Shown one piece after another: positions 1,718 to 51,473 of a stretch of 64,000 nt of DNA. Source of the stretch: Myrmaecium sp. VS I D KN 1. Taxonomy: Eukaryota; Ascomycota; Dothideomycetes; Valsariales; Valsariaceae. The stretch's first letter is position 1, and every line of letters begins with the position of its first letter. The stretch lies in the NCBI GenBank assembly GCA_019775845.1, contig JADQAV010000032.1:186001-250000 (forward strand). Reading direction: 5' to 3'. The notes beneath the pieces are model-generated. The model was not told the DNA's origin. It did not search any database and saw only the letters and a program-made list of their open reading frames with translations. The position numbers and the translations under genes are program-made.

Positions 1718-2342
1718 TTAGTTGATAAAGTTGACACAGAAGAAGTGCAGAATGAAGCTGCCGAACACAAAGTCGGCGAAGGCGCGCTCGTCGGAGACAG
1801 TTTGAAACTCGGCCCGGTTGGCTGGGTTGGTCTGGATGCGCAGGCTGGCCGTGAGGACGAACTGGCCGACGGTCGCGCTGAAGCCGGAGAGGAAGGCGTT
1901 GAAGGGCTGGATGGAAGGGGGAGATCAGTAGGTTTTCTTTTATCCTTCTTCTCTTTGATGGATGGATAGGAGAGATGTCTCGTGCGGGGGTCTGTGGCTG
2001 GGAAAGGTGAACACATACGTAGTTGCCCGCCAACACGCAGTAGAGGAACTGCAGCGCACCGACAACGACGAGGAAAGCGAGGAAGGTGTCGAGCAGCTTC
2101 ACCCGCTGCGGCGTCTGGCTCACGTAGCGCTGCCAGACGCCCTGGAGGATCGTCTGGGCATCCGCGTTCTTGGAGCTGATGGCGGCGCCAGCGGACGGCT
2201 TGACCGGTGTGGAGGCCGCGGTCGACGTTGTGTGCTCGTGGGAGGCGGCGCTGGCGGGGATGACGGAGGGCGAGGGTTGCCGGTCGATGGGGGCGGTGGT
2301 GGTGTTGCTGCTGCTGCCGGTCTTGCGGTTCTTCGGGGCCAT
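1718..2342 (-). CDS. OST2: Oligosaccharyltransferase subunit OST2/DAD1
   Basis: Small integral membrane subunit (DAD1 in animals) of the ER oligosaccharyltransferase, which transfers the lipid-linked glycan to Asn of nascent proteins. Model: complement(join(1718..1906,2019..2342)), 170 aa, with a 112-nt intron (GTATGT donor, CAG acceptor) that joins ...LAGNY to PFNAFLSGF. The first ~60 residues are a low-complexity Ser/Thr/Pro/Ala extension. The conserved core follows: a WQRYVSQTPQRVKLLDTFL block, a membrane helix (FLVVVGALQFLYCVL), the hallmark FNAFLSGF, a second hydrophobic stretch, and the terminal FADFVFGSFILHFFCVNFIN. The chosen ATG opens with MAPKNRK. A longer frame extends upstream but has no family similarity. 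It is divergent from the TMEM14-like gene with 469 bp between the starts. Confidence 0.95.
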
Positions 2343-2811
2343 GATGATCGATGTGCGGTGGTGGTGGTGGTGAGCGGGTGGGTGAGTAGGATGAAGGCTT
2401 GTCCGAGAGGGAGGGTTGGTGAGGGTAGAGGGAGTGAAGAAGCAATTGCAACAAGCAACAAGCAATGGCAATGGCAATGGCAAAGGCGGAGGTGGTGCGG
2501 CGGAGAGATGGAGATAGCTTCGCGGGGTTTCGTTGGAGGTGGTTGAGGCCACGACGTACTGTAGCTTCCGGCCGCGCAACGCGTGGACCCTGAGGCACCG
2601 AACATGACAGGGCTGAACGTTGACGGGCTCGGCGCTGACTAAGGACGGCCCCGGAATGCCATCGACATCATCGCTCCCCGAGCTTCTTCTGCTTACTCTC
2701 TCACATCTCAACCGCATTCCCCACAGTATCCCATCGCATTCACACGTCTTCGCCTCCTCCACCTCTCATAAGTTTCAAGGACTCACCTCAATCAGCCCCC
2801 AGATCAGTACA
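2343..2811. promoter_or_regulatory. Divergent promoter between OST2 and the TMEM14-like gene
   Basis: The 469 bp between the two start codons must hold both promoters and both 5' leaders. The OST2 side contains a short CAATGG-type repeat (about 2463-2483) and purine-rich DNA. The right side is C/T-rich and leads into the TMEM14-like ATG. No TATA box is obvious. Confidence 0.5.
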
Positions 2812-14584: not shown

Positions 14585-16162
14585 ATGTCCGCCGTCGCGG
14601 ACGGTCCGCTTGAAACGAGCTCTCCCGACAACGAAAGTAGGCGACTCCCTCGTACATATATGGGATCTACGGACTCACCAAAGCTGTTGCCAGGCCGTCG
14701 CAGACGGAGCTCAACCGTCCTCGATCCGAAAAGCTACATCCATCCTGAGATATGGACCCAGGCGCCGGTGCTCACGGGTACGACCAGCTTCGAGCCCTTG
14801 CCTGACGCCCGAAATATCATGGTCACTGGTGGAGCGGGCTTCATGTATGAGACGTCCTCCTACCCGGCGCATCGTACATCGGACGCGCTGACGCAGACGA
14901 CAGCGGCTGCTGGCTCGTCCGCCATCTGGTCCTCACCTACCCGGACGCCTACAACGTCGTCTCCTTCGACAAGCTAGACTATTGCGCCTCGCTCAACAAC
15001 ACGCGCAAGCTGTCAAACTGCGCCAACTTCGCCTTCGAGCAAGGCGACATCACCTCGCCGGCGGACGTGAAGCGGTGCCTGCGCAAGCACCACATCGACA
15101 CCATCTTCCACGTCGCCGCGCAGTCGCACGTCGACCACAGCTTCGGCAACTCCTACCAGTTCACGAACACGAACGTGTACGGGACGCACGTGCTGCTGGA
15201 GAGCGCCCGGGCCCATGGCGTCTCCCGCTTCATCCACATCTCCACCGACGAGGTGTACGGCGAGGTCGCCGCGGACGCGGACGATCTGATCGAGAGCAGC
15301 ATCCTCGCGCCCACGAACCCGTACGCGGCCAGCAAGGCCGCCGCCGAGATGCTCGTGAATGCGTATTGGAAGAGCTTCAAGCTCCCCGTCATCAGCGTCC
15401 GCAGCAACAACGTGTACGGGCCGCATCAATTTCCAGAAAGTCGGTGCATGCACATCCCCCCCTCCTCCCCCCATCCCTCATCCTAACCATCCCCCCGTCC
15501 CAGAAATCATCCCCAAATTCATCATGCTCCTCCACCGCAAGCGCAAACTGCTCCTGCACGGCGACGGCCGGCCGACGCGCCGCTACCTCTACGCCAGCGA
15601 CATGACCAACGCCCTGGACACCATCTTCCACCGGGGCACCATCGGACAAACCTACAACGTCGCCTCCACCGCCGAACTCTCCAACCGGAGCCTAGCCGGT
15701 TACATCCTGCACGCCTTCGGCCTCCTGCCCCTCTCGGAGATCCACAACCCCACCGCCCTCGCCCCCTTCGTCCAGCACACCGACGACCGCCCCTTCAACG
15801 ACCACCGCTACGCCACCGACGGCGCCAAGCTCGCCCGCCTCGGCTGGCGCGCCCGCGTCCCCTTCTTCCCTGACGGCCTCCGCCGGACGGTGGCGTGGTA
15901 TCGGCGCTTTGGCGAGGTTTGGTGGGGTGCGGATTTGGCCCGTGTACTCACGCCGTTCCCCGTCGTGGGGCCCGGCAATGCGATTTGGACGCGCGAGGAG
16001 CATGAGGCGTTTGGTGATGAGGAAGAAGGGGAGGGGGAGGGGGAGGGGGAGGGGAAGGTGACAGGGGAGGAGGAGGAAGGGAAGGAGGGGGAGGGGGATG
16101 GGAAGGATGGGGAGGAGGAAAGGAGGAGGGAAGAGGGGGAAGAGGGCAAGCAGTCCTTGTGA
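14585..16162 (+). CDS. Nucleotide-sugar (dTDP/UDP-glucose) 4,6-dehydratase
   Basis: Join(14585..14844,14904..15439,15504..16162), 484 aa. This extended SDR enzyme converts NDP-glucose to the 4-keto-6-deoxy sugar, the first step toward rhamnose-type sugars. Seen: an N-terminal extension of ~75 residues, the NAD-binding TGGAGFIG rebuilt across intron 1, FHVAAQSHVDHSFGN, ISTDEVYGE with the catalytic Thr-Asp-Glu set, YAASKAAAE with the Tyr-x3-Lys pair, VRSNNVYGPHQFPEK across intron 2, and DDRPFNDHRYATD. The intron 2 donor is the weak GTCGGT. The last ~45 residues are an almost pure Glu/Gly/Lys tail with no counterpart in the enzyme family. It is encoded by G-rich low-complexity DNA. Confidence 0.92.
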
Positions 16163-16790: not shown

Positions 16791-18982
16791 TCAACAGCCC
16801 CCCAACCCCGCACACCAAGCCAAATACCACGTCAAGCTCGCACCGCCATCGAGGGCAGCCTCATTAAAATCCGGGGCGGCAAAGAACGCATACGCCGCGC
16901 GGGGGTCCACGAGGGCGTAATTCGCATACAGCAAGCCGCGCCAGCCATCCTGGGCGTCATCGGCGCGGCCGTCCGAGAAATACGCGTCCCACTCCTCCTG
17001 CACGAAGCGGGGGCGGCGGGTGTAGGTGCTGGCGGGGCCGAGGGGGATCATGTGGATGCCCTGGATGAATTCGGGCGCGATGCCGAAGTAGGTTGCGTGG
17101 TCGCATTTGTTCTCGAAGAGGATGCCCGTGACCTTGTTGCCGATGAAGCGGGCGGGTTGGTCGACGTTGGAGGCTTCCATCAGGAAGTGGTGGTGGAAGG
17201 TGCGGGCTTGGATGGCGAGCATGAGCGTGCCGCGCGCCTCCATGTTGCGGTCGCCCAGCACGCGTCCCCACATCCGGAGCGCGTAGCTGGCGAAGGCGTC
17301 TTCGGATGTGGACTCCTCGTCCTTGCCGTCGCCGGACTCGTATAGTCCCTTCGCCCAGCTGTGGCCGTGCCACCAGTCGAACGAGCGGGAGAAGGGGTAG
17401 TAGTCGCCCACGTACGAGTTGGCGTAGTCCTGCACGAGCATCTGCACCCACGCCTTGTTCGTCCCCTGGCTCAGCCAGGCCGGGTCCATGTACGCGATCA
17501 CCGCGGCAGCGTAGACAAAGTAGCCGTAGTGGAAGTGGTGGTCGTTGAAGTTGGTGTTGCCGAAGTCCACCCCGGAGTCCTCGTACCCGCCCGTCGAGAT
17601 GACCCCCTTCCAGGACTCGTCGTACACCAGCGGGTTGATCTGCTTGTTGTCCACGAAGCGAGCGAAGGCTGCCTTTAGCTTGGCCAGCCCGGCCGTCGCG
17701 AGGTCCGGCTTGTCGCTGAGGTAGCGGGTGGCGAAGAGGATGAAGGCGAACTTGGCGAGCGCTTTGCCGGCGAAGTACATCGAGTCCAGGTTGCTTTGTG
17801 CGAGCATGTCTTGCTGGAGCTCTTTGCTTGCGGCGTTGGCAACAGCAGTGGCTGCTGCTGGTGGAAGTTTGGTGACCGATCCCTTCTCGGGCGTCCATGG
17901 TGCGAAATGCATGTCAACCGGGAGGTTTGGCTCGATCATCGTCATTTTGTCTGGAAAGGATGATAAGCATGTCATTCTTCATTTCATCTACAGCGGACTC
18001 ACTTACCTCCGATGATAGCGGTCGCCACGCCTTTGGTCGTCGTCCGAAGCTGGATGCACGTCTTGGTGGACTGCGTGGCCGCATCAAAGGACTCGACATG
18101 GTGCGGCAACGCAAACATGACCAAGGGCTTGGTCCCAAACTTGGTCCACCGCAGGGTGTACGTTGCCGTCGTCCCATCGTTACTCACGGACGCGGAGATG
18201 TTCGCACTCAACGCGAACGTGCCAGCCGATCGATCGTAGACAGCCTCTCCGTCCGCGCCGGCAGGGTTCTTGGCAACCTGTATGCTGCCGTAGAAGCCCG
18301 CCGGTCCTCGGATGGTGGTGTTGTCGACGAGGGTGAAGCCGGCCGGGTTAGCATTGCCGCTGGTGCGGGTGACATAGATCAGCCAGATCTGGTTGTCCTC
18401 CAAGACCACTGCGAACTTGACGGACGAGCCAACCGTGACCGGGCGACTGAGGCTCCGGAAGAACACGGAGGACTGGATCAGGGGAGTGGCACCGCGATAA
18501 ATGGCCGAGATGAACCCCATTCCCTGGAGCATGGGAAAGGTGATCGTGGGGTCGCCTCCAGCCGCGGCGGAGAGGTGAGCGTTGGCCGAGAAGGCACGGA
18601 TCGTGTCGACGGTCAACGTCGTGCTGGGCCCCAGCTCCGCGGCAGACATGATCAGGGAGTGGACGCCAATGGGGTTCAGGTAGTAGCGTGCCGGATCACC
18701 GTCGCCCAGAGCGAGCTGGTTCGCCTCCGTGTGGGAGATGGCGAGGCCCCAGCTCTTCGCGTTGCCGGTCCCTTTGCTCCATTGCAGGGAGTAGGGCTGG
18801 GGGAAGATGGGACAGCCTTGGCTGCCGAGGAAGAAGTTGGCGTAGAACTTGTTGGTCTCGATCGGGGACTTCTGGTCGATGGCCGAGATTCCCAGGCGAG
18901 GCACTGGATGGTTGGTCCGGTGGGCGATGTTGGCCGGCGGAGGATCGCTGCTGATGGGGGTAAAGATACTGGAGGATGTCAT
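16791..18982 (-). CDS. GH81 endo-1,3-beta-glucanase
   Basis: Complement(join(16791..17950,18007..18982)), 711 aa. It hydrolyses internal beta-1,3-glucan bonds in cell-wall remodelling. The N-terminal beta-sandwich begins at HPVPRLGISAID and includes ETNKFYANFFLG and YSLQWSKG. After the 56-nt intron (GTAAGT...CCAG) the (alpha/alpha)6 catalytic domain carries FNDHHFHYGYFVYAAAVIAY, SFDWWHGHSWAKGLYESGDG and the acidic motif KDEESTSEDAFASYALRMWG, which holds the catalytic Glu region of GH81. The protein starts MTSSSIFTPISSDPPPANIA and has no hydrophobic signal peptide, so it resembles the intracellular Eng2/Acf2 type more than the secreted Eng1 type. No C-terminal anchor or binding module. Confidence 0.97.
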
Positions 18983-19936: not shown

Positions 19937-21017
19937 CTAAATCAACTTCTCCTCCCCCTCCACCCCCTCATCCGCCACCGTCCCCACCCCATCACCACCA
20001 AGATACTCCCGATTAAACGCCCACAACCCCCTCGGCACACCCTCCGCATCACAGCTCGCAAACCGCCACCAGCGCGCATGCCACCAACCACCCACATGCA
20101 CCAGCGCCCATCGGACCGGGGCCGGCATCGGGGGCCAATCGCGCCACCGCCCCCCTTCGACCGTGCGATCGCAGTGGTACAGAAAAAACGGCAGGACGTC
20201 GGTGTAGCCCGCGCGAGCCAGGGAGGCTTTACCCCAGGCCTTGAAGAGGGCGCGGGTGGTGGCGTCGGTGGTGGGGTCCTGCGGGGGAGGAAGAGAGGCG
20301 ATGGTGCGGATTTCGGCGTGGAAGTGGGTGGTGAAGGGCTCGCGGAAGGCGGCGAGGAGGGAGCGGAGTTTGGTGGGGGAGAGGGCGCGCGGGGAGGGGA
20401 GGGTGGCGAGGTAGGTGTGCAGGGCGCGGAGGCCGGGCATGAAGGATGCTGGTGGTGTGGTGGTGTTGGTTAGTTGTGGATTGGGGATGTGGAGGGGGAA
20501 AAGGGGGAGGAACGTACTATGCTCGGCGAATGTAGCCCCCCAAACTTCCTCCTCCGACTTCCCGAGCACCTGGGCGACGGCGGGGAAGAGCGAGCGCTCC
20601 TCCTCGTCGTGGTGGGTCTGGACGAACTTGCACCAGGTCAGGCAGTAGCCGATGAAGTCGGCGTAGTCCTCCTCCGCCAGCACGGCCGCCTGGTTGTAGA
20701 TGCTGTTGTAGCCGCGCAGGATGGCGTTGTGGAGGAGCGCCATGTGCGAGGCGCCGATCGTGAACACATCATCCTAGACACATCCATCCATTCCGTCAAC
20801 GATCTGAATCCCCACGGGGGAGGGAGGGGGCTCAACTCACCTTGCCCGTCTCATCAACCGGCGTGCGGATCAGCGGGATAGGCGTGTCCGCCCACGGTTT
20901 ACCCGCCAGCATCTTCTTCGCCATATCCGAGTCCATATGCAGCATCCACTGGTTGAGGATGTAGACGCACAGGACCGAGATCAACGGCACCACGATGCTG
21001 GAAAACTTGGCCGACAT
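19937..21017 (-). CDS. Membrane-anchored hemerythrin (HHE)-domain protein
   Basis: Complement(join(19937..20448,20518..20773,20841..21017)), 314 aa. Exon 1 encodes a short cytosolic start, one membrane segment (FSSIVVPLISVLCVYIL) and a linker. The HHE cation-binding four-helix domain follows: SHMALLHNAILRGYNSIY, KFVQTHHDEEERSLFP with the HHxxE-type ligands, FAEHTSFMPGLRAL formed across intron 2, and FTTHFHAEIRTI with the last His/Glu ligands. Intron 2 could be read through, but its GTACGT donor, CTAAC branch and CAG acceptor restore the family spacing. A Trp-rich stretch (WALVHVGGWWHARWWRF) near residue 280 may lie at a membrane surface. Ligand and function (O2, iron or redox sensing) are unknown. 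Confidence 0.9.

Positions 21018-21805: not shown

Positions 21806-21859
<54 letters not shown>
21806..21859. repeat. (TCA)n microsatellite
   Basis: Eighteen perfect TCA units, followed within 50 bp by a GGT/GGA-rich tract. Confidence 0.95.
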
Positions 21860-21973: not shown

Positions 21974-21994
21974 ATCATCAGGAACGGGATCGGA

Positions 21995-22038
21995 GAGGAA
22001 GACGAAGACGAAGACGAAGACGAAGACGAAGAGGAAGA
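21995..22038. repeat. (GACGAA)n repeat
   Basis: Hexamer tract of alternating GAC and GAA triplets, about seven units. Confidence 0.9.
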
Positions 22039-22366: not shown

Positions 22367-24505
22367 TCACCGCTCCTTTCCCCTCCCCCTCCCCCTCCCA
22401 AACACCTCCCCCCACCACCCCGCCCCAAACAACCTCCTTAGCCTTCCCCCCTCCCTCTCCCCTCTCCTCTTCTCCTCCCTCAACAACCGATCCTTCAACG
22501 CCAACGCATCCAAGCTCCTCGGTCGCGGTCGTCCCAACCCCAATCCCAGTCCCCGAGCCCGGGCGCTGCGCTCGCAGAAGCCCCCCGCGCGCGGACTCGC
22601 CGCCCCCACGGCGGGCTCCCCCGAATCCCACAGCCCCGTCGTGTTGGTGGGGGGTAAGTATGCGGAGTGGATCCTCGGCTGCTGCGGTGGTGGCGGGGGG
22701 TTGGGGGAGGCTGGTTGAGTGGTGGTGGAAGCGGTGGTGGTGGAAGCGACGGTAGGCGAAGTGACCAGGATCGGAGGCGGAGGCTCAGAAGCGCGGACGG
22801 AACGCACGTCCGGGATCTTCTTCTCGTCGGCAACGACGGCGGCGGCCTGCAACGTCAGGGAGCTGCGACCGCTGCTGCGTTCGTTCTCGCTTTCGAGCAG
22901 GACGGCGGGCGGGGAGCGGCGGACGGGCGTGGCGTCTCGCGGACGGCGGAGGAAGGAGGTCGTCGACGTCGTCGTGCCGGTGGAGTTGGCGCGGCGGGTG
23001 CGCGTCGTTGATGCCGTTGTGGTGGTGGTGACCGCCGCGCCGGGGGCGCTGGTCCGCGAGGCGCCCGAGTCACTCCGACCGATCCGATCCCCCGTGCCGC
23101 GGAGGATTTTGGGGAAGGATGTCCGACGCGAGTCCTCCGCGTCGGGGGGCGGGGTGGAGGTGCCGCCGTTCGACGGGGCGCGCAGCGGCATCGAGACGGT
23201 ACGGGTCGGTCCGACGGGACGGGGGGAGGAGGGCCACGGGGAGCTGGCGCTGACGCTGGCGGCGGGCCCTGCGGGCGTGTAGCGGAAGACGGTGGACCAG
23301 GATTCCCGGAACGCGACCCAGATGCCGGTGACCAGGATGAGCTTGCGGAGGGCTTCGGTGGTGCGCATCGAGCTGTTCTCGGTCCAGGCATCCGCGCCAT
23401 CGGCCAAGGAACTGGTTTCCGACCAGACGGACGGCGTGGCGAGCGGTGTCTGGATCGGCGAGGTGAGCGGTGAATGGAGAGCGACCGAAGACCCAGCCGG
23501 CAAAGTATACGTATCCAGCACGTCGATGCTGGCGCGGGTCATGGACGCGATGATGGGATGCCGTCGCGTATCCGGACTGATGGTGCTGAAGTTGAACTTC
23601 TTGTCCTCGCCGGCCGCGGCCCCCGGCCCACGCCCCTCATACGTGCCGGACATCCTCCGGTTCGGTCGGCGGGCGACCCAGCGGACCTTGAGCTGCAGAC
23701 CATGCTCATCCGTGCTGACAAACTCGTACCCGCCGTTCGCCATCGTCGTCACCTCCCACACGGTCCCATCGTCGATGCAGATCTCCGTCTTGGCCGTCCC
23801 CTTCGTCTCATCCTTCTTCCCCACACAAATAGCACCAACAATCTCACGCCGGCCCAAGCATTCATCCTCCGAGCCATCCTCCTCCTCCGTCACCGGTCCG
23901 TAATCGTTCGCTTTGGCGACAATGATGTCGTCCGGCCCTAGCCGATCCTTCCCCTTGACCGTCTGAATGAGCTTCTTGGTGATGGCGAGGCGCGGAACGA
24001 ACTTGCTGGCCGGGAGCACGTCATATGCCGGTTTGGGTCGAGAGGATGAAGGCGAGGACTGCTGCAATTGGAGCAGCACGCGGGGTCGGAGATGCAACTT
24101 CTGGCGCGGGCCGGCCGTCGGGGGCGGATGAGCGAGGTTGTAGGCGATCTTCGACCGGGGGGTCTTCTTCTTGGGTTTGCCCTCCGACGAGGCTGCACTG
24201 TCGGCGGTGGCCGGTCGGGAGAGGGCGCCTTCGGACCGGACGTCGGGCTCGACGAACATGATCGACCGCGGGCTCTTCGGCGGTGTGGATTCGGCGGGCG
24301 AGGGTGCGCTGCACTTCACCGTGGGTTGCTGAGGGGTGACGGGGGAGAGCGGCGAGGTCGTGAAGAGGGAGAGAGGTGAGCGACTGCGGATGGGGGAGGC
24401 GGAGACGGAGGCGGAGGATTTCGTTTGCAGGAGCGCGTCGCGTGTGGAGCTGCATTCACGGCTGTGAGCAGCGGCGGCGTCTGCTGTCATCATGGACAGA
24501 AACAT
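22367..24505 (-). CDS. Uncharacterised Ser/Pro-rich fungal protein
   Basis: Single exon, 712 aa; I do not recognise a characterised family. The N-terminal third is disordered (Ser, Pro, Ala), then VLPASKFVPRLAITKKLIQT. Next is an ordered-looking block with FEVTTMANGG-like strands (TVWEVTTMANGGYEFVSTDE, LKVRWVARRPNRR), then FNFSTISPDTRRHPIIASM and SIDVLDTYTLP. A short hydrophobic segment, LRKLILVTGIWVAFRESW, may be a membrane-associated helix. The C-terminal 300 residues are low complexity (Ser/Thr/Pro/Arg), ending in a basic helix ALKDRLLREEKRRGEREG and a tryptophan pair. The ordered middle blocks argue for a real gene. The start may be either Met 1 or the Met at position 5 or 6. Confidence 0.75.
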   Translation of the reverse strand: MFLSMMTADAAAAHSRECSSTRDALLQTKSSASVSASPIRSRSPLSLFTTSPLSPVTPQQPTVKCSAPSPAESTPPKSPRSIMFVEPDVRSEGALSRPATADSAASSEGKPKKKTPRSKIAYNLAHPPPTAGPRQKLHLRPRVLLQLQQSSPSSSRPKPAYDVLPASKFVPRLAITKKLIQTVKGKDRLGPDDIIVAKANDYGPVTEEEDGSEDECLGRREIVGAICVGKKDETKGTAKTEICIDDGTVWEVTTMANGGYEFVSTDEHGLQLKVRWVARRPNRRMSGTYEGRGPGAAAGEDKKFNFSTISPDTRRHPIIASMTRASIDVLDTYTLPAGSSVALHSPLTSPIQTPLATPSVWSETSSLADGADAWTENSSMRTTEALRKLILVTGIWVAFRESWSTVFRYTPAGPAASVSASSPWPSSPRPVGPTRTVSMPLRAPSNGGTSTPPPDAEDSRRTSFPKILRGTGDRIGRSDSGASRTSAPGAAVTTTTTASTTRTRRANSTGTTTSTTSFLRRPRDATPVRRSPPAVLLESENERSSGRSSLTLQAAAVVADEKKIPDVRSVRASEPPPPILVTSPTVASTTTASTTTQPASPNPPPPPQQPRIHSAYLPPTNTTGLWDSGEPAVGAASPRAGGFCERSARARGLGLGLGRPRPRSLDALALKDRLLREEKRRGEREGGRLRRLFGAGWWGEVFGRGRGRGKER

Positions 24506-28182: not shown

Positions 28183-30706
28183 ATGGTGGACGGAGCAGCG
28201 CAAGCAACGCCGCGGTGCCAGCGGCTGGTCGCGTGGGTGACCGAGCACGGCGGCTTCCTCCACCCGGACGTCGAGCTGGTCGAGGACGGCGACCACGGGC
28301 TGCACGTCCGAGCGAGACGGAAGCTGCCCACGCTCGGCGGGTCCCGGGGCGCGTCGTCGTCCGCATCGGCTTCGGATGGTGATGATGAGGGCGCGGAGCA
28401 GCGACAGCAGCAAGAAAGTGAAGAAGAAATCACCATCTGCACCTGCCCCGCCGCCCTCTCACTCTCCCACCTCAACGCCTCCGCCGCCTCCGCCCACCCG
28501 GGCACGCCCATCCGACACACCGCCTCCGCCATCGCGATCCTGCTCAAGCTCGGCTTCGACCCGGCCACGGCCGCGCACTTCTTCCTGGCCGAGCAGCGCC
28601 TGCTGGCCGAGCGGTCGTTCTGGGCGCCCTACCTCGCCTGCCTGCCGGCCGCGGACGCGCTCACCACCCCGCTGTACTTTGACGAGGAGGATCAGGCGTG
28701 GCTGCGGGGTACGAATGTGCTGGCCGCGATCGAGGCGCGGCGGGATGCGTGGAGGGGGAATTGGAAGTTGGGGTGTCGGGCGTTGGAGAGTGGGGGGGTG
28801 GATGTGAGGACGTTTACTTGGTATGTTTGTGAGCTTTTTGCTTCCTTTTTTACTTTGCCTCTTTGCCTTCTCTCTTCCCCCCCCCCCTCTCTCTCTCTCT
28901 GAAGTTCTCCATGTCGTGCGTTGCCCGTGCTGTCTTTTGTTGTCGTCACACCGCTCGCCGGCCTATGCCTCTCATGCCACCATCGTCAGACGTTTGCATT
29001 TCTACCTCGATACACGTTGCCCTGTTCAAGCGCGGCCATCTTTTCACTACCCGCTCGGATTACAAGAGAGACGGGAGATGGTGAAGATGGACTGTTGTAA
29101 ACCTTCTATAAGCCCTTATAAAAATCTCCCCACCCTCTCGATGCCACCCCACCCCAAACCCCACCGCGCACCTTCCCCTCCTGCAAACCATCCGTCATGC
29201 CGCCTCCTCCATTCGAACCCCCACAACCGCTAACCGAAGCTTTTTCCCTTTCTTCCACGCAGGGAAATCTACCAATGGGCCGCCAGCATTTTCAGCTCGC
29301 GCTCCTTCACCTCCAACGCCTCCGACCCCGGCAGCGGCGGCTTCCCCATCCTCTACCCGCTCGTCGACTGCCTCAACCACCGGGTCGGCGAGCGGACCGT
29401 CTGGCGCTTCGACCGGGGCGACTTCACCCTCGCCACCACGCGCAGCTACGAGGCAGGCGAGGAGATTTACAATAATTACGCCCCGAAGGGCAACGAGGAG
29501 TGTGAGTTACCCTGTCCATCCGCCGAATGCAATGGCTAAACGTCCAAACCAACCCATCCAGTGCTCATGGGTTACGGCTTCGCCCTGCCCGACAACCCCT
29601 GCGAAACCTTCTCCATCCGACTCGGCCAGATCCCCGCCCCCGTCATCGACGCCCTCCTCACCCACGGCCTGCTCCCCCGCATCAAAACCGACCCGACCAC
29701 GCTCGCGACCTTCGCCCTCCGCGGCCGCAACCACTACAGCCGGTACCCATACCCAGCCGCGCTCGCACCCTACCTCGGCGGCCTCCCCCCCCTCATGCTC
29801 GCCACCGTTGTCGCCCTCGTGCTTCTCAACCGCGACATCCCCCCAACCCGCCCCCTCCTCACCCACCCCCCGCTCCGCCTCCTCCTCGCCGCCCTGCTCC
29901 AGCTGCTCCCCAACCTCCGCCGCAAAGCCGCCCTCCTCGACCAGACGAACCCGACCCGTCCGCCCGCGAACCCCAAACAGCGCGCCGCCGCCATCTACCG
30001 CGCCACCCAGCGCGCCGTCCTCGCCGACGTCGAAGCCGACGTCGAGGCCCTCTTCCGCGCCCTCCGCCCCGCGGGAGCAGACCTCCCACAAGCCCTCCGC
30101 CTCCATCAAAACAAAACAGGCTGCACCCTCAGCCTCGCGCAAGCGCAACAGCTCCTCGCCCTCGCCGCGCCCGCCGCCGGACGTGACTTCCGCGCCGGCC
30201 TGACCGCGGGCTTCGGCACCGCGGATCCGGCGGCCCTTCGCGCGCCGGACCTCGACGCGGAGGACGCGGCGTGGGTGCTGTGGGTGTGTTGTGCGTGGGT
30301 GGTTGTCGATGCTGGTTGTGGCGACGACGGGGAGCCGGCGGCGGTGGAGGCGTTGAGGGGTGTGGTGGGGTTTTTGAGGGGTGTGGTTGGTGAGGAGGAG
30401 GTGGAGGAGACTGGGAGGGAGGAAGAGGAGGAGGAGCATCAGGGTGGGATTCGTGTGATGAGGGAGGTGGTGAGGGATGCGATGGGTGAGGGTGCTGTGG
30501 GGAGTGTGTGGGGGGATGAGAAGCGTTGGACGGCGGGGTTGATTGGCTGGGCGGAACGGGTGGTTGGGGAGGTGGGGTTTGCGTGGCCGGTTGAGGGGGA
30601 GGAGGAGCTGGAGATGGGGGCGTGGGTGATGTATGTTAAGGTGGAACCGGAGGGGGAGGAGGATGGGTGCGTGTTGATGGTTGGTGATGCTGTTGAAAGT
30701 TCGTGA
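28183..30706 (+). CDS. SET-domain protein-lysine methyltransferase (RLSMT/SETD3-type)
   Basis: Join(28183..28820,29263..29501,29562..30706), 673 aa. The N-terminal part opens the SET fold (LVAWVTEHGGFLHPDVEL). Exon 2 carries FPILYPLVDCLNHRVGERTV with the AdoMet-binding Asn-His and GEEIYNNYAPKGNEE, completed across intron 2 as LLMGYGFALPDNP. This matches the Rubisco-LSMT/SETD3/Rkm class. A helical substrate-binding region follows (MLATVVALVLLN, LLLAALLQLLPNLRRKAALL), then an acidic Glu/Gly tail around residues 580-600. Intron 1 is 442 nt, unusually long for this window, but its GTATGT donor and CGCAG acceptor rebuild FTWEIYQWAASIF. The substrate is unknown. Exon 3 flips from C-rich to G-rich near 30240. 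Confidence 0.9.
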
Positions 30707-35756: not shown

Positions 35757-36225
35757 AGCACCACCGCCCCTTTTTTTTCCCCTTTGCGTCCATCCCCCCG
35801 CACGCCGTCCAGGCACGCAGAAGCGGGACCCTTCCTACGCTATTTGATTTTCTGCCGGTCGGGAAGTCTCAAGCACCAACCTTAATCCTCTTCGGCGTCG
35901 CGCTCGCCCCCTCGCTTAACCTTCCATCACCGGTTCCAGCCTCCTGGCCCTGCCGGGCTTCAGCCTCCCCTGTCTTTGCAGCCGCGACCCCTTCACAAAA
36001 CCTCTTATTGATCCGCCTTTGCTGGCTGTGTTCAATCTCTCCAATCCACACCGACTTCTTCTTCACCTCTCTCCAATCCTCGTCGCTCCGCCTCCCCGCG
36101 CCCATCGCTCGGAGTCCACGAGGCTGTCCTACCTCAGATCACCTAAGATCTCAGCTACCGACCGACCGACCGATTGGACCTGACCACCACCGCCGCATCA
36201 CCGACCTCAGCCTCGCTCTTCCACC

Positions 36226-37407
36226 ATGGCTCACATCAACGCCCCGACCGAGCACAACGAAGCTGCTCTGGACTACTTCATCAGTCTGCCGGTCTCCAAC
36301 GACATGATCTCCCACCTCGCCCACCAAGCCTCACAGGTCATCCGCTGCGAAAGCACACCGCAAGTCAACAAGAACCTCCCGCCGACACCGCCGACCACCC
36401 CTCCCCGCCATGCGTTCGCCCGGGACCCGTCGTTACCCAGCGTCGAAGAATTCATCGCCTCGCTGGTGGAGCGCAGTCATGTGCAGGTGCCGACCCTCAT
36501 GACCTCGCTGGTGTACCTGGCCCGCCTCAAGGCTCGCCTCCCCGCCGTGGCCAAGGGCATGCGCTGCACCGTCCACCGCATCTTCCTCGCCTCCCTCATC
36601 CTCGCCGCCAAGAACCTGAACGACTCCTCCCCCAAGAACAAGCACTGGGCCCGCTACACGGCCGTGCGGGGGTACGACCACTTCGGCTTCTCCATCACCG
36701 AGGTCAACCTGATGGAGAAACAGCTCCTCTTCCTGCTCGACTGGGACCTCCGCGTCACCCCGGAGGATCTCTACTACCACTTCGAACCCTTCCTCGCCCC
36801 CATCCGCGCCCACTTGGAACGCAAGGCCGAGGCCGCCCGCGCGGCGGAGCGCCAGGAGATCGTCCGCCGACAGCAGCAACAGCAGCAGGCCGCCATGTCC
36901 GCGCACCGCTACGCCACCAACCCCCGCGACTTCCACCACCACGCCTACCCCTCCCCGCAAACCTTCTCCGCCTACGCCGCCGAAACCTACCCGGCCCGCT
37001 CCCGCACCTACCACCACAGCAGCACCTCCTCGACCTCCACCACCTCCACCTCCCGGACCCCCTCCCTCTCCCCACCTTCCCGCAGCTCCACCTCCTCCTC
37101 CTCGTCCTCCGGCGACTCCCTCCACAGCTCCCCCTCCTCCAGCAGCATCGGCTCCGAGCCGTACATCGCCAGCTTCGACGAGGACGCCTTCGTCGTGCGC
37201 GGGACCGCCGTCGTGGATGTCCCTTCGCAGCAGCATCACTACGCGGCGGCGATGCAGCATGTGAAGGCGCTGAATAGCAGTCGGTATAGTTTGCCGCTTG
37301 CGCAACCGCAGCAGCAACCGCAGCAGCAGCAGCCGGTGGCGAAGAGGGTGAAGACGTCGGGGGCGAGTAGTATTCTTGCAAGGTTTTTGGGGGCCGCGAC
37401 GGCGTAA
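36226..37407 (+). CDS. Pcl1/2-type (PHO80-like) cyclin, PclA-like
   Basis: Single exon, 393 aa. Regulatory cyclin of the Pho85/PhoA CDK class. After a Pro-rich linker (LPPTPPTTPPRHA) the cyclin box runs from about residue 75 to 195: LPSVEEFIASLVERSHVQVP, TLMTSLVYLARLKARLP, CTVHRIFLASLILAAKNLND, SITEVNLMEKQLLFLLDWDL and RVTPEDLYYHFEPFL. The C-terminal half is disordered: a Gln run, His-rich and long Ser/Thr stretches, and a second Gln run near residue 365. In Aspergillus nidulans the Pcl-like cyclin PclA is developmentally induced and involved in sporulation. The long upstream region fits such regulation, but that is inference. Confidence 0.92.
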   Translation: MAHINAPTEHNEAALDYFISLPVSNDMISHLAHQASQVIRCESTPQVNKNLPPTPPTTPPRHAFARDPSLPSVEEFIASLVERSHVQVPTLMTSLVYLARLKARLPAVAKGMRCTVHRIFLASLILAAKNLNDSSPKNKHWARYTAVRGYDHFGFSITEVNLMEKQLLFLLDWDLRVTPEDLYYHFEPFLAPIRAHLERKAEAARAAERQEIVRRQQQQQQAAMSAHRYATNPRDFHHHAYPSPQTFSAYAAETYPARSRTYHHSSTSSTSTTSTSRTPSLSPPSRSSTSSSSSSGDSLHSSPSSSSIGSEPYIASFDEDAFVVRGTAVVDVPSQQHHYAAAMQHVKALNSSRYSLPLAQPQQQPQQQQPVAKRVKTSGASSILARFLGAATA

Positions 37408-44482: not shown

Positions 44483-46121
44483 TCACAGTTCCACCCTCGG
44501 AACCCTCACCCACCCACCAACCACCACCAACCCCAGCGCAGCCAAGCCGGTCGCGCAAAGGAAGACATCGCGATACGCAGCCTTCGGGGCCCCGTTCCCA
44601 CTCTCACCCCCGCCCCTAGCACGCACAACAACATCGCCAGCAGCGGTGGCAAGAGCGACAGCAAGGTTAAAGCAAACGCTGCCAACAGCGCCGGCGAGGG
44701 CCTCTCGCTCAGGCGGCTGACGCTCAAGCAGAACGACAGTGGCGACGGTGAAAGTGAGGTCGAGGGCGAGGGAAGCGGCAACCATGGCGAGGGGAAGGAG
44801 GATGAGGCTCAGATTGGGGGTGAAAGTGAGAACGACAAGAAGGAGCGGGGTGGCGACGGCAGCGAGGGAGCCGACGAGAACGAGCGAGGTGGGCGGGACG
44901 CGGTGGAGGAGGGCGCCGCTGGCGAGGGCGACGAGGGTGCCGCATGCGGCATGGGGGAGGAAGGCGAGGAGCAGGGCGAGCGGGGTGCGGTGGAGGATGT
45001 GTTGCAGGTAGGCGGTGCCGTGGAAGAGGAAGATGCCGTAGGAGCCGTAGAGGAGGAAGGCGGCGAGGAGGAAGGGCCGGAGGGAGGGCGGGGCGAAGAA
45101 GCGGGCGGGTAGGAGGGGGCAGCGCGCGAGGTGCAGTTCGATGGGGATGGCGAGGAGGAGGGAGGTGAGGCCGAGGCTGAGGGGTACGAGCGTGTGAGCG
45201 GATGTCCATGCGTGCGGGATTGAGGCGGTGGAGAGGCTGTAGACGATGAGCGTGAGGCCGGTGGAGATGGCGAGCGCGCCGGGCCAGTCCATGCACAGCG
45301 GGGTGCTGGATGCCGGGCGTGAACAGCGGGAGGGCGTGCTGAGGTAGGCGATCAGGGCGACGAGAGCGGAAGCCGCCACGGCGGTCCAGAAGTAGACGCG
45401 CCAGGTGGAGAACTGCACAGCGAGGGTGGCGGCGAGGATGCCGGCGAAGAAACCCAAGGGGGCGCAGGCGCTGTAGATGCCGAGCACGATGTTCCGCCGT
45501 TTCCCGGCCGGATACAAGGCTGCGATCATGCTCATGGAGGCGGGCAGCATGGCGGCCGCGGCGACACCTTGCATGGCTCGGGCGATGCCTATCGTGGCTT
45601 CCGAGTTGCAGAAGCTACCCGCGAGCGTGGAGGTGCTGAGCCAGAGTGCGCCGAACATGAAGACGGGAAAGCCTCCTCGCATGTCGGCCACACGGGCGAG
45701 TGGTAAGATGGTCGCGGCGATCGCCAGTGAGAGGGCGCATGTCGGCCACACCATCAGCTGGCCTTCGTCGGAGTGGAAGCTCGATGCGAGGTACGGTGCC
45801 AGTGGTCCGAAGCCGGAGATCAAGTATTCCTGCTCGTCCGTCAGTACTCATGTTGAAATACCAAGCAAGTCCTCGTACGGAGAGTAATTGTGAGACGGCA
45901 ACCGCAAAGCAGAACCCAACTTCCGCCGCAGTGGAGTTGAAGGGGGGTTTCGGCTCGAGCTGTTTCTCATCGATCACGGATGCTGCTATGTCTTGACCAC
46001 ATGTCGTGATCGAGGGTACATTTGTCGCATTGGTCTCGCCATTGGGCACTCTTGTACCCCCTGGTGTCCAGCAAATGTCCGGATCATCCGAGTCATTGGT
46101 GGTCATTGAACTGGCTCCCAT
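44483..46121 (-). CDS. MFS transporter, DHA2/ATR1-like drug:H+ antiporter
   Basis: Complement(join(44483..45829,45879..46121)), 529 aa. The 48-nt intron joins VAVSQLLS to EYLISGFGPL and rebuilds the first helix. A polar N-terminal ~65 residues precede about 14 hydrophobic segments. Motif-like elements are ARVADMRGGFPVFMFGALWL (motif A region), RAMQGVAAAAMLPASMSMIA (motif B), and GIYSACAPLGFFAGILAATL (motif C, typical of antiporters). The layout fits the 14-TM DHA2 family, and the EY-x-ISG element recalls fungal ATR1-like exporters. Substrate unknown. No biosynthetic cluster adjoins it. Confidence 0.93.
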
Positions 46122-47371: not shown

Positions 47372-48423
47372 TCAAAGCTTCGCCTTAAACCTCTCATTCT
47401 CCTTCCGCAACGGCTCCGCCTCCTCATTCGACTTCTCCGGCGCCCCCGGCTCCGCGCTCTTCTTCGGCGCGCTCTCATACGCCTCCCGCTCACCCTCCGC
47501 ATCCACCACCCGTCCCTGCTCATCCCGTCGAATCCCCAACTCCATCAGCTTATCAAACGCCCGACTAAAATCACGAAAGAACAACTCCCGATCCTTCGCA
47601 TACGCAAGCACCCACTTCGAAAACTCCGGGTCGTCCCGCAGCGCGACGTCGGTCGGGAGCATCATCAGCTCCTCCTCGGTATCCTCATCGATCGCATAGA
47701 ACTGCCGGACGCCATTCGGCAGCGTCTTCTCCTTCCACTCCTCCTGACTCAACAACCGAAAAAACTGATTGCTAAACCGCGTCGGATTGTTCACCCACTT
47801 GCCATGGAACCCCGACCGATCCGCGTGGCAGCGGCCCAGATTATGCGCCCCGACCAACGCCACGATCTCCCGATCCCCAAAGCCCATGCGATAAAACACC
47901 GCGCGCACATGCTCCGCGCCGCGGGCGCCATCCGGCAGCCGTCCCCGGGGCGGCAGGCGGCGATCGTCCACGAAATCCGTCCGGCCGGGACGCCAGGGGA
48001 TGCGCGGTCCGCCCATGGCCTCGATGGCCACGACGCCCGCCAGCGTCCAGAGATCCGCGTATGTGATCCAGGGGTGCGCGGCTTTGACGGGCTCGAGGAA
48101 GACCCGCGCGTGCTGCAGCCCGGCGTTGGCAGGGTCGCCGCCTTCGGCTTCGTAGCGCATCCCTGCGCCGTTGGAGCCGCCGGTGTTGGTGGCGGCGTCG
48201 TAGGTGCCGGCGGAGTGCCTGGGTCGGGGGTAGGTGAGTGAGTATGGGGGAGGTAAAGGGGGTGGTGGGGGATGGGGATAGGGGGGTTGACTGCGCATGG
48301 AGGGAGGGCTTACCATGCTAATCGGACGAGAACTGGCCCTGCGCTGCCATCGTCGTATTCGGGTTGGTGGAGCAGATCGATGATCGATTTCCGGACGGCG
48401 TCGTAGTCGCCTGGCTTGCTCAT
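47372..48423 (-). CDS. Cytochrome-c-peroxidase-family heme peroxidase (CCP2-like)
   Basis: Complement(join(47372..48218,48314..48423)), 318 aa. Class I heme peroxidase reducing H2O2. The intron splits the distal heme motif, rebuilt as VLVRLAWHSAGTYD with catalytic Arg, Trp and His. The proximal ligand is in [19 protein letters not shown], followed by the expected [15 protein letters not shown] segment with a Trp at the radical-site position. Binding elements include [20 protein letters not shown] and [18 protein letters not shown]. It begins directly with [14 protein letters not shown] and has no mitochondrial presequence, unlike Ccp1, so a cytosolic location is inferred. A charged tail of ~45 residues extends past the domain. 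Confidence 0.95.
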
Positions 48424-49247
48424 CTTGCTAAACGGCAACGGCGGACGGTGAAAGAGGACCGTAGGTAAGGGATGAAAGGAGCGTTTCGCTTCTGCTGGCT
48501 ATGCGGAGCAGTATCGGTATAACTGAAAATATACCCAGAAGGAAGAGCAATAAGAGTGCGAAGTGCAAAAGAAGGTCAACCGCAAAGTGGCGGAAATCGA
48601 TGACTATAAACCGAATCGTACATCCTTAACTAGGAGTAAATACCATCGGGGAGTTTGCCGTTCGGCCATTGAATGGCATCGATCCGAGCCCCAGTGCCTC
48701 GGCAATTGATAAGATTTCCCCGGGTTTCTTGGCATGCCCTCCGCAATTGCTGTCTCCAACGTGCATGTGAAGGGCCAGACGGCCGACGGCGATGGAGGTC
48801 TGGTTGATATACAGAAAGGGCTCGATGAAAAGGCAGCATACGAGGCTTCGCGCAGGTACCGATATGCATCCATGCACATGCTTCCCGGTCAGCCCTGCAG
48901 CGCGAGGGGGGAATAGTCTGAGAGCCAATCAGAAGGCGTGTAATCCCGGTTACGACCTTGTGGACCTGCATGTGAGGAATTATCGGGATTGGTTGGATGG
49001 AGGGAGCCATAGAGGAGTGCGGCAAATGATGCACAGGAGCGTTGCTTGGGAGTCCAGCCTTGTTCTTCCATGTAGGGGATGCGCTGATTATGAGTATTCG
49101 TTATACAGTACTAGTAGCTATGAAGGATAGCCTTAGACAAGCATTTCTTATTCCCCTTATTCTTCATGTACCTCCCTCTACCGACTCCAATCTTCATACC
49201 CTCCAGAGTCCGGCTCGACCAAACGTGACGATCGTCCAACATCTCCT
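48424..49247. other. Intergenic between the peroxidase and NTR1 genes
   Basis: Peroxidase promoter and NTR1 3' UTR, both minus strand. Balanced composition, nothing recognised. Confidence 0.5.
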
Positions 49248-51473
49248 TTACTTCCCTTCCGCCCGCCTGACCAAATCCCCTCCAAGCCCAATCGGCTCCC
49301 ACACCGTCTTATCCTTCGCATTCCTCGCCCACACCACATCGCCACGAAGGTAGACAACAACACCACCCCTACCCGTCGCGCTCGCCGTGATCCTCCACAG
49401 CGGCGAGCCAGTCGTCTCATGCGCTTCCCGAAGCGGCAACATCAACAAGCCCTCCTCCTCGCACCAGCCCTCCACCACATCGCGGAAACTTGCCTCGGGC
49501 ACGGGCGCTTCCTTCCGCCGAGCCTCCGCCCCCCCGCCGCCCTTTCTCGGCGTGCCTTGCGTATGCGACGTCGTGATCGCGATCGGCTTCGCCGGCCCAG
49601 CGGTCGGAAAGGGGAGCTCGGTCGCGGCGCGGTCGCCCAGATCGAGCGCGAGGTTCATCATCGCGAGGCCCTTCTCCCACATGTCCGCCACGGCCTTGAC
49701 CTGGTTGACCTCAGGCGGGAAGACGCCCTTCCACCACTCGAACCACATGCCCACCTCCTCGTAGTTCGGCTCCGCCGTCAGCCACTGGTGCAGCACGTTG
49801 AGCCACTTGGGGAAGAACTCGGCGAGCAGGAGCTGCCCGAGGACGACGGGCTTGAAGAAGTCCTTCCACGCGAGCACGTGCTCCATCGGCGTGAGGTTCT
49901 GGTCGCTGGGGTCGACTTCGAAGTTGGCGGTGAGGTGGGAGGCGAGCCGCGGCAGGAGGTGGCGGATGAGGACGTGGTCGAGCTCGGGGCCGAGGACGTC
50001 GCGCCAGGCGGCGAGGCCGGGGAGCGGGCCGCGGGTGATGTCCCAGGTGTCCAGCGCCAGACGGAGCTTGCGTTTGACGTCGGCGAGGAGACCGGTGGAT
50101 GAGGTGGGCGAGGTGTGCGGGGGCGGCAGATGGGGTAGCCAAGGGAAGAGCCAGGTATGTGGAGGGGGTGATCGGTTGGGATGACGGAGCGAAGTACGAG
50201 GGTTCCACGATGATATCGCGGAAGAAAGCTTCTGGACTATCTGCTGGTTAAGGAGGTTGGAATATATGAAAGGCGGCAGTAGATCTTTCCAGGCTTCGAT
50301 AAGGGTCAGGAGCGAGGATGGCTGGTGCGGGTCCCAGGAGTTGGTGATCACGGTCCGAACTTTCGGCAGCCAAAGTGTATAGATCATAGTCTCGTAAGGC
50401 GTGGTGGCTTTGCGCCGCCGGTAGGTGGGCTCGTAACTACCGTTGTAGGTGGAAACTTCATCTTTGCTGATTCCCAGGATGGTGCGTAGGCGGCGGAGGA
50501 AGGAGACCAGGTGCAGTGGCCGGTCTAGCGGTTCCCAGTCAATCATCTCTTGTTTAAAAAGCGGGTGAATGGCAGCGACAGCCGCTTCAGAGAGATTGAA
50601 CGTGTCGAGCTCCGCCGTGTAACTTGCTTGCAGAGTCTCCAGTTGCGAAACCACGTCCTCCCATCGTTCAGCAGCCTCATCAGCCAGACTTGGCTTGTTG
50701 AGGTCTATGCTGTTCAACGCCTCAATAGCCTGAGCGATCCCCCGAACCTTCTTTATCTCCTCTTCCTGCTCCTGTATTTCGCGCCGTAGCAGTTCCTCCT
50801 CCGTGTCCACATACTTTTGCTTGTCTCGGAGCTCGTTCCAAGCCTCGGCGAAGCTTTCCAGCTCCCTGCGCGCCCTTCTGGCAATCTTCTCCGCTTCCGT
50901 TTCAGCCGTTTGAAACCCAGTAACCGGGGTCATAAGCCCGGCCGTGGATGTCAGGACCTTGTTTTCCTTGCCGGTCGCATCGATGAGTGTCTTCAGCACA
51001 TTCGGAACCTCCAAACCCTCCGCTGCAGCTTCGATGTCTGCTGCTGTCCGGTATTTCGTCTTCGGTCGCGAAAATCCGCTCGGAGTACTGGCACCGCTGC
51101 CTGTCGCTGATCGCGCTGCGTTTCTGGCAGCTTCCCTTCTCTTCTTCCTCGCCTTCCTCTCCTCTTCTGAGGAGTCCTCGTACTCCTCTCCTCTCCGTTC
51201 CGCCGCGCGCCTGGCTTCCTGTTTCGCTTGCTCGGTCTTCTCCTTCACACTTCCCACACCGGCACCCTGCGGTCGCAGTTTGACCTCAATAGGGTTCAGA
51301 ATACCCTCTCCGGTCTTACCCAAACCCTCACCCTCCTTGTAACCCATTTTCGCCATCATCCTCTGGGCGAACGACATCTTGCCGGTACCGGCGCCGGCGC
51401 CGGCCGTCTTCGCATTCTTGCGACTCGCGGTATCATCGAAGTCGCTTTTGCGTTTGAACGATGGACGCTCCAT
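49248..51473 (-). CDS. Spliceosome disassembly factor NTR1/TFIP11-like (G-patch, GCFC)
   Basis: Single exon, 741 aa. It activates the DEAH helicase Prp43 in disassembly of lariat spliceosomes. The N-terminus holds a G-patch at residues ~33-78 (FAQRMMAKMGYKEGEGLGKT, then GILNPIEVKLRPQGAGVG). A charged Glu/Lys/Arg coiled region follows, then the GCFC/PAXBP-like helical core: LHLVSFLRRLRTILGISKDE, MIYTLWLPKVRTVITNSWDP, LLTLIEAWKDLLPPFIYSNL, HVLAWKDFFKPVVLGQLLLA and MWFEWWKGVFPPEVNQVKAV. It ends with a SFRDVVEGWCEEEGLLMLPL domain. The first 1.3 kb has mixed codon use and the last 0.9 kb is GC-rich and skewed. Confidence 0.95.
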   Translation of the reverse strand: MERPSFKRKSDFDDTASRKNAKTAGAGAGTGKMSFAQRMMAKMGYKEGEGLGKTGEGILNPIEVKLRPQGAGVGSVKEKTEQAKQEARRAAERRGEEYEDSSEEERKARKKRREAARNAARSATGSGASTPSGFSRPKTKYRTAADIEAAAEGLEVPNVLKTLIDATGKENKVLTSTAGLMTPVTGFQTAETEAEKIARRARRELESFAEAWNELRDKQKYVDTEEELLRREIQEQEEEIKKVRGIAQAIEALNSIDLNKPSLADEAAERWEDVVSQLETLQASYTAELDTFNLSEAAVAAIHPLFKQEMIDWEPLDRPLHLVSFLRRLRTILGISKDEVSTYNGSYEPTYRRRKATTPYETMIYTLWLPKVRTVITNSWDPHQPSSLLTLIEAWKDLLPPFIYSNLLNQQIVQKLSSAISSWNPRTSLRHPNRSPPPHTWLFPWLPHLPPPHTSPTSSTGLLADVKRKLRLALDTWDITRGPLPGLAAWRDVLGPELDHVLIRHLLPRLASHLTANFEVDPSDQNLTPMEHVLAWKDFFKPVVLGQLLLAEFFPKWLNVLHQWLTAEPNYEEVGMWFEWWKGVFPPEVNQVKAVADMWEKGLAMMNLALDLGDRAATELPFPTAGPAKPIAITTSHTQGTPRKGGGGAEARRKEAPVPEASFRDVVEGWCEEEGLLMLPLREAHETTGSPLWRITASATGRGGVVVYLRGDVVWARNAKDKTVWEPIGLGGDLVRRAEGK

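Follow-up and report, generated by a model that had tools for sequence, protein, structure and literature searches.

The window, the whole stretch of 64,000 nucleotides of Myrmaecium DNA under study, holds genes on both strands in which the 3′ end of the coding strand forms a G-rich zone (Table 1). The 60-base C and G counts quoted in the preliminary description were exact on recount in nine of ten blocks, the exception being the 3′ block of NTR1, which holds 29 rather than 28 G residues. That description took every listed gene to have a C-rich body; five of six bodies indeed have a negative third-position GC skew, but the value for NTR1 is +0.02, and its body is therefore not C-rich overall. 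Among the genes previously judged similar by eye, the cyclin gene showed a strong flip (p = 0.0005), GH81 a significant but small one (−0.03 in the last 75 codons versus −0.32, p = 0.0005, with G-richness in the last 45 bp only) and RCL1 a weak one (p = 0.067). The SET gene owes its name to a Pfam match of the previous exon that stays below threshold (E = 0.0012, 19.7 bits versus a cut-off of 22.4), and a search with the protein of the terminal ORF returned zero relatives at E ≤ 0.001.

Table 1. G-rich 3′ zones and one predicted intron in the window (third-position GC skew; bp counted from the stop codon).
Feature	Coordinates	Strand	G-rich 3′ zone	Pfam match	Step (bp)	LLR	Skew across step	Last 50 codons vs body	Remark
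Dehydratase/epimerase ORF	15359-16162	+	15881..16162	PF16363/PF01370	279	46	−0.68 to +0.66	+0.89 vs −0.66	
Predicted C-rich intron in dehydratase body	15440..15503	+							Intron scan; G3, C34 without intron ends
GH81 gene	16791-17978	−	16791..16838	PF17652	45	6.5			Very short, weak G-rich end
Hemerythrin gene	19937-20773	−	19937..20161	PF01814	222	35	−0.49 to +0.77	+0.89 vs −0.51	
Uncharacterised ORF	22367-24523	−	22367..22564	No match	195	35	−0.16 to +0.96	+0.95 vs −0.17	
SET-gene terminal ORF	29540-30706	+	30254..30706	No match	450	94	−0.66 to +0.87	+0.94 vs −0.45	
Cyclin gene	36184-37407	+	37240..37407	PF00134/PF08613	165	38	−0.47 to +0.90	+0.89 vs −0.45	
MFS transporter	44483-45847	−	44483..44548	PF07690	63	21	−0.54 to +1.00		Short zone
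Peroxidase gene	47372-48427	−	47372..47920	PF00141	546	32	−0.36 to +0.61		Step inside Pfam domain; gradual, not abrupt
NTR1-like G-patch/GCFC gene	49248-51593	−	49248..49604	PF07842, PF01585	354	12.9	+0.01 to +0.57	+0.66 vs +0.02	

The analysis covered 264 kb of the contig that carries the window (C24), where 104 ORFs were predicted; the Pfam scan omitted eight of them that cross stretch borders. Fifty terminal ORFs, 34 classed as Pfam-supported and 16 others, were chosen by judgement of length, Pfam match and apparent terminal position, with the skews of the window ORFs known before the choice, and the first 10 codons of each were skipped. Over both strands, the GC skew of these ORFs at fourfold sites went from about −0.25 in the body to about +0.4 over the final 100 bp. 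Upward C-to-G steps (LLR > 8) were found in 33 of the 50 and downward G-to-C steps in 3, and the flip exceeded a synonymous-codon shuffle within each ORF (p < 0.01) in 28, comprising 19 of the 34 Pfam-supported ORFs and 9 of the 16 others. The flip is thus real, frequent and gene-oriented on both strands near stop codons, as originally reported: in many genes a C-rich coding strand gives way, often abruptly, to a G-rich one some 250 bases ahead of the stop codon, and step-like flips are frequent in single C24 genes. The stop-aligned profile was the same in the 31 ORFs outside the window. Among all 83 predicted C24 ORFs of at least 150 codons, taken without selection, 68 shifted in the same direction; the 50 used ORFs had a mean shift of +0.61 (44 positive) and the remaining 33, many of them probably internal exons, one of +0.28 (24 positive, p = 0.003), so that our choice inflated the size of the effect and not its sign. 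Of the 16 ORFs initially placed in the group without Pfam support, two (OGG, RRM) later proved to have a match; both lack the flip, as do the V-ATPase, AdSS and NSTrans genes on C24. When genes were grouped by GC3 from low to high, 4 of 20, 6 of 18, 11 of 20 and 8 of 16 had strong tails, and GC content as a driver is weak (rho 0.29, p = 0.04 for GC3; rho 0.18, p = 0.15 for fourfold GC). ORFs with tandem (23) and convergent (27) neighbours did not differ significantly in the coding flip (p = 0.20), which was also unrelated to neighbour distance on C24; a neighbour-driven cause therefore finds no support.

In the C24 profile the G-rich zone is about 350 bp long, beginning roughly 250 bp ahead of the stop codon and ending roughly 100 bp past it. 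The all-base skew was +0.44 in the last 50 bp, +0.30 at 0–50 and +0.19 at 50–100 bp past the stop, and negative again from +150; the coding flip correlated with the post-stop skew (rho 0.47, p = 0.0003, 56 genes). Upstream, the fourfold skew was about −0.3 in Pfam-supported bodies and weaker in the 16 others (0.00 to −0.24). On the 5′ side of 47 ORFs, a C-rich stretch of the coding strand spans about −300 to +250 relative to the inferred start codon, with a skew of −0.2 to −0.3 near the start, and the start-aligned profile is close to zero by +350. Intron skew followed that of the flanking exons (rho 0.60, p = 0.001, n = 26), and hence non-coding DNA has the local skew too. By distance from the stop, mean intron skew was −0.23 below 350 bp (7 introns), −0.35 at 350–800 bp (9) and −0.17 beyond 800 bp (10); near-stop introns therefore show no flip on average, and some of the ORF stops concerned may not be gene ends. 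AATAAA-like motifs were too rare to place poly(A) sites.

For base composition at fourfold sites, we compared the region 500–800 bp upstream with the last 102 bp in the 34 Pfam-supported ORFs. From body to tail, C fell from about 0.57 to 0.23 and G rose from about 0.28 to 0.54, while T went from about 0.07 to 0.17 and A from about 0.07 to 0.06. Because the pyrimidine share dropped from about 0.64 to 0.40, transitions are insufficient, and C-to-G or other transversions must contribute. In twofold codons on C24, tails carry T instead of C and G instead of A, the T fraction of NNY codons rising from 0.23 to 0.48 and the G fraction of NNR codons from 0.68 to 0.88. This shift is present before every next base and is thus not CpG-specific, which makes methyl-CpG deamination unlikely. 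The change in G−C tracked the change in T−A (rho 0.43, p = 0.0005, 62 genes). In Pfam-supported C24 ORFs, the fourfold AT skew was about 0 at 500–800 bp and about −0.5 in the last 300 bp; fourfold T was also 0.15–0.19 beyond 900 bp upstream, where T exceeds A and the AT skew is −0.17 to −0.36. The all-site AT skew of these ORFs was nearly flat (+0.08 to −0.10).

W, V, G, E and R are over-represented in the tails and T, P, S and H under-represented, and the C-ending codon is reduced in nearly every synonymous family, Ser AGC being the sole exception. The preliminary description saw no amino-acid reason for the codon shift. This is correct insofar as the flip exceeds a synonymous shuffle, but shuffled tails often keep a positive mean skew (+0.54 for the dehydratase), so the amino acids of the tail carry part of it. 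C24 codons outside Pfam matches flip more (+0.53), and in-domain codons stood at +0.23 within 102 bp of the stop versus −0.33 at 510–900 bp. Ten of 24 steps lay within 25 codons of the end of a Pfam match, where 6.5 were expected (p = 0.063), and a step fixed by the domain end was not established.

On other contigs, the mean shift of 24 genes was +0.23 versus +0.61 on C24, with 15 of the 24 shifting in the same direction (p = 0.034) and no significant T−A change in these genes (p = 0.39). Kinase genes elsewhere (14 of 16 loci, two having been dropped for having no stop in the stretch) barely changed from body to tail, with an NNY T fraction of 0.29 to 0.32 and an NNR G fraction of 0.69 to 0.72. 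A shuffle test similar to that of McLean & Tirosh, in which the first 100 bp of the stretch were used whether or not the gene begins there, was significant for 36 of the 50 C24 ORFs versus 3 of the 14 kinase genes. In 20 kb of contig C10, one of ten scanned ORF pieces matched Pfam and one ORF was flipped; this sample was excluded from the statistics.

McLean & Tirosh (2011) described opposite GC skews at the 5′ and 3′ ends of fungal genes (PMC3315797), and the basic 5′-C/3′-G pattern is therefore already known across fungi in a milder, average form. Our genes resemble their fourth group, in which the gene is mostly C-biased and a short G-biased 3′ end often reaches into the UTR; in both studies fourfold sites as well as amino acids are affected and the skew peaks at the stop codon (PMC3315797). 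Whereas they worked with averages and modelled a gradual ramp, and found 33% of genes significant in C. albicans (PMC3315797), we see step-like flips in many single genes and significance in the 36 C24 ORFs given above. To their description we add these single-gene flips, the twofold T and G replacement on C24, the intron skew, the lack of a detectable effect of neighbour orientation and the amino-acid contribution. They reported a largely flat AT skew and used it against C-to-T deamination (PMC3315797). In the twofold codons of C24, T and G increase jointly while the all-site AT skew stays within the narrow range given above, and this joint rise weakens that one published argument against deamination of the non-template strand, at least for C24. 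A GC-compositional strand bias at transcription starts has been reported in plants and fungi (PMC555766), and the C-rich coding strand around fungal gene starts is common to that report and C24; it concerns 5′ ends, and a search of its main text returned no mention of the 3′ end, the stop codon or termination. Vertebrate genes likewise have GC skews of opposite sign at their two ends, which that study considered in connection with transcription-coupled repair and deamination and, for upstream regions, with antisense transcription (PMC2927911). Their signs are reversed, with G at the 5′ end and C at the 3′ end, and none at the 3′ end in primates (PMC2927911).

The explanation we favour, at nearly even chances, is that strand-asymmetric mutation linked to transcription left the zone behind near 3′ ends, and that conserved domains partly hide its effect. 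A precedent for the pattern and a mutational hypothesis have been published (PMC3315797). We infer the mutational origin, the link to transcription and the chemistry of single-strand damage. The non-template strand would often be single-stranded near the 3′ end of the transcript, where C might change to T as well as G, and A might change to G, while GC-favouring fixation could keep the total GC content high. Conserved protein domains would partly resist such mutation, so that C-terminal tails under weak constraint would show the strongest and often sharp-edged zones, and mutation may shape the residues of these tails as well. Against this reading, uniform transcription-linked damage should turn the whole body G-rich and bodies are mostly C-rich; transversions are needed at fourfold sites, where T is also high beyond 900 bp upstream; near-stop introns are not G-rich, some genes on C24 are unflipped and the shift is weaker elsewhere. 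The directions of change proposed here are read from differences between body and tail within one genome. A more specific version, which we consider doubtful, is that the transcription cycle sets a discrete, sharply bounded domain of strand-asymmetric mutation in a subset of genes, which removes non-template C and A and writes Trp/Val/Gly/Glu-rich tails; the averaged fungal gradient would then be a mix of sharp-switch and no-switch genes.

Alternatively, antisense transcription might start near the 3′ ends, so that C-rich antisense starts make the sense 3′ end G-rich and the two gene ends mirror-like. The start and stop zones described above are roughly mirror-like, the step-like edges and the variation from gene to gene would fit discrete antisense units, and the C-bias near fungal starts is published (PMC555766; PMC3315797). 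The mirror is imperfect, however, with a fourfold AT skew of about −0.5 in Pfam-supported tails and about −0.1 in the first 250 bp, and the lack of a significant difference between tandem and convergent neighbours and of any relation to distance also argues against it; we regard this explanation as a serious competitor, though an unlikely one. Mutational asymmetry, driven by antisense transcription, had been the second suggestion of the preliminary description. Such asymmetry fits better than a built-in terminator, but antisense transcription may or may not be its cause, neighbour orientation and distance having no detectable effect.

Selection on codons or amino acids could also be invoked, with a C-ending optimum in conserved parts and either another optimum or low-complexity Glu/Gly/Trp/Val C-termini in the tail. 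The residues enriched in tails, the stronger flip outside Pfam matches and the part of the skew that survives synonymous shuffling are in its favor. It is nevertheless improbable, and as the sole cause largely refuted by the extension of the skew into the 3′ UTR; introns have skew too, C-ending codons are lost in all families but Ser AGC, steps also occur inside domains (peroxidase, abhydrolase, RRF), and relaxation alone predicts zero skew, not +0.9.

At the 3′ ends of human genes, GC skew with a G-rich non-template strand is accompanied by R-loops and linked to termination, and R-loops that act in termination would be expected at the poly(A) site or downstream of it. The human signal is tied to termination, whereas the zone described here lies across the stop codon and fades out a short distance past it. 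A built-in 3′ R-loop/termination signal under selection, the first proposal of the preliminary description, draws on a tail composition that would favour R-loops: R-loop-like motifs occurred in 22 of 50 tails on the sense strand versus 5 of 50 on the antisense strand, and in 3 of 35 sense bodies. The antisense strands of bodies hold them as well (11 of 35), as C-rich bodies would, and G-runs in 23 flipped tails were no more frequent than composition predicts (z = 0.5 for runs of at least 3, −2.2 for at least 4 and −2.8 for at least 5), which likewise speaks against selection for G-quadruplexes or G-clusters. The zone does not last beyond about +100 to +150 past the stop and many genes have none, and McLean & Tirosh also placed the peak of the 3′ skew at the stop codon and not in the termination region (PMC3315797). 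We therefore think a terminator quite improbable, and the strong version of the pattern is more suggestive of uneven mutation having left its mark than of a built-in signal. An annotation artefact, in which sense ORFs run through into the antisense of real convergent genes, as the long antisense ORFs common at high GC might allow, is most improbable and already weakened, for the tail skew is strongest at sense position 3 (+0.73 versus +0.51 and +0.27 in 21 flipped genes), 3 of 8 genes without a coding segment within 2 kb downstream have a last-75 skew of at least 0.67, and three long antisense ORFs (29507-30880, 40578-41525, 17876-19006) lack a Pfam match.

McLean & Tirosh left the cause undecided between mutation and adaptation (PMC3315797), and our literature search found no later answer. 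Strong, sharp flips in one genome make the rival explanations testable: zone edges that fall on antisense starts, on R-loops or on poly(A) sites would single out one mechanism. The flips also caution that mutation may lie behind the composition of C-terminal tails and the codon bias of such genomes.

The dehydratase/epimerase tail is Glu/Gly-rich and built of purine repeats. DNA of the dehydratase stretch matched two other flipped genes (ankyrin, CCCH/RING) and one further place; the ankyrin and CCCH/RING genes, having been found with a G-rich query, were excluded from the independent evidence. Compositional tails of this kind can mislead similarity searches.

GC skew, (G−C)/(G+C) on the coding strand, stayed between −0.24 and −0.35 at fourfold sites from −1224 to −408 relative to the stop codon in 34 Pfam-supported ORFs, then moved through −0.19 at −306 and +0.08 at −204 to +0.40 in the last 102 bp. 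Another 16 ORFs had a body skew closer to zero (0.00 to −0.24) and reached +0.38 to +0.45 in the last 204 bp. Past the stop, the all-base skew of all 50 ORFs was +0.30, +0.19 and +0.05 in successive 50-bp bins and negative from +150. The profile was consistent between the two strands.

These ORFs come from the window (C24:186001-250000; C24 is its contig in a genome of 25.66 Mb and 66 contigs) and 100 kb on either side. Coding segments were predicted with a model blind to G versus C at the third codon position, so a third-position flip could not drive the ORF calls, and frames were verified against Pfam. The 50 apparent terminal ORFs were chosen by judgement from 104 predicted, and two of the 16 others later proved to have Pfam matches; when all 83 ORFs spanning 150 codons or more were taken without picking, 68 shifted in the expected direction (mean +0.48, versus +0.61 in the chosen 50). 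Among the best 120 thiolase relatives listed, the top match was 86% and the top named match 85% identical, and the closest named were ascomycetes (many Dothideomycetes and some Leotiomycetes); the host is thus an ascomycete without a close relative among the matches listed.

The preliminary description rested on base counts in 60-base blocks, nine of ten of which were reproduced exactly, the remaining one differing by one. The last-102-bp skew was +0.38 in 31 ORFs outside the window and +0.19 in 11 window ORFs left unnamed in that description. Synonymous-codon shuffling within ORFs gave p<0.01 for 28 of 50, and change points with LLR>8 were upward in 33 and downward in 3 of the 50; for C24 these results argue against flips placed at random, which that description had named as grounds for abandoning its claim.

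The 20 strong steps (LLR>20) lay a median of 252 bp from the stop (IQR 192-339), with no significant correlation with ORF length (p=0.23). A switch was better by AIC than a whole-ORF linear trend, the only model compared with it, in 18 of the 20, and its best-fitting width was zero or near zero in 12. The change was gradual in the peroxidase and anthrone oxygenase genes, and two steps were far upstream (714 and 1674 bp), both in ORFs lacking Pfam support.

The G-rich zone continues across the stop codon, and predicted introns resemble the neighbouring exons in skew (rho 0.60, p 0.001, n=26); the zone is therefore a DNA- or RNA-level feature. The seven introns within 350 bp of a stop, which were not G-rich (mean −0.23), count against this reading. 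In the last 50 codons W, V, G, E and R increased and T, P, S and H decreased. In C24, codons in the last 102 bp before the stop had a skew of +0.53 beyond Pfam matches and +0.23 in-domain (in-domain −0.33 at 510-900 bp), versus +0.14 and −0.01 on other contigs (−0.17). The last 30 residues of an MFS transporter encoded on another contig (C29:860213-861358) consist almost entirely of Gly, Val, Trp and Leu, and the post-stop skew of its gene is +0.78; this extreme tail is apparently shaped by base composition. DNA matches to the dehydratase tail in an ankyrin gene (L003:1488-2555) and a CCCH/RING gene (L004:1511-2779), both outside this part of the genome, look compositional, since both tails are G-rich and flipped.

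From body to tail in C24, T replaced C at NNY codons (T fraction 0.23 to 0.48) and G replaced A at NNR codons (G fraction 0.68 to 0.88), whatever the next base; in 14 kinase genes elsewhere the fractions rose only from 0.29 to 0.32 and from 0.69 to 0.72. Damage to a non-template strand while it is single-stranded would be expected to enrich G and T in the way that these C24 codons show. The fourfold-site change requires transversions too, and fourfold T was as high >900 bp upstream as in the tail. McLean & Tirosh (2011; PMC3315797) report the 5′-C/3′-G pattern in most fungi examined and argue against C-to-T deamination from AT skews largely constant along genes; in C24, AT skew hardly varied when every site was counted but did vary at synonymous ones. 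No later work on fungal 3′ skew was found among the top-ranked open-access matches, which is no proof of absence.

We favour transcription-linked, strand-asymmetric mutation, which would generate the G-rich zone, with constraint hiding part of its effect in conserved domains, and put it at slightly under an even chance; the near-stop introns, far-upstream fourfold T and kinase-gene figures lowered our confidence marginally from even. Neighbour orientation and distance had no detectable effect on the flip among C24 ORFs. That antisense initiation causes the G-rich ends we consider unlikely. A selected R-loop terminator is improbable, given that G-runs in tails were not enriched above composition, although R-loop-like motifs were commoner in sense tails (22/50) than in antisense tails (5/50) or sense bodies (3/35).

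On other contigs the shift was weak in the 14 kinase genes and mixed in ten MFS/SDR genes: of these 24, 15 shifted the expected way (p=0.034), the mean was +0.23 versus +0.61 in the C24 set (p=0.005), and last-50-codon skew exceeded 0.4 in 5/24 versus 24/50. A McLean & Tirosh-style shuffle test was significant for 36/50 in C24 versus 3/14 kinase genes. Pfam domains served to choose the comparison families, and in some of these conservation reaches the C-terminus, so that region, gene class and C24 ORF choice are confounded. The strong flip is a finding for the C24 set rather than for the genome as a whole.

The 8-oxoguanine DNA glycosylase (OGG) gene (window 10446-11597, minus strand) has a GC3 of 0.59 and no flip. 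To the right of the window, about 85100-102700 in window coordinates, only two coding segments were predicted (ORFs 91460-91735 and 93648-94238), and this stretch is possibly repeat-rich or poorly modelled.

Repeats and a homopolymer run (window coordinates)
Feature	Position	Remarks
T run	38446-38501	56 bases, 96% matches
GGGAT repeat	38535-38566	6.4 perfect copies, shortly after the T run
(TCA)18 repeat	21806-21859	perfect
AGACGA and GAGGAGA simple repeats	21994-22221	downstream of the stop of ORF 22367-24523
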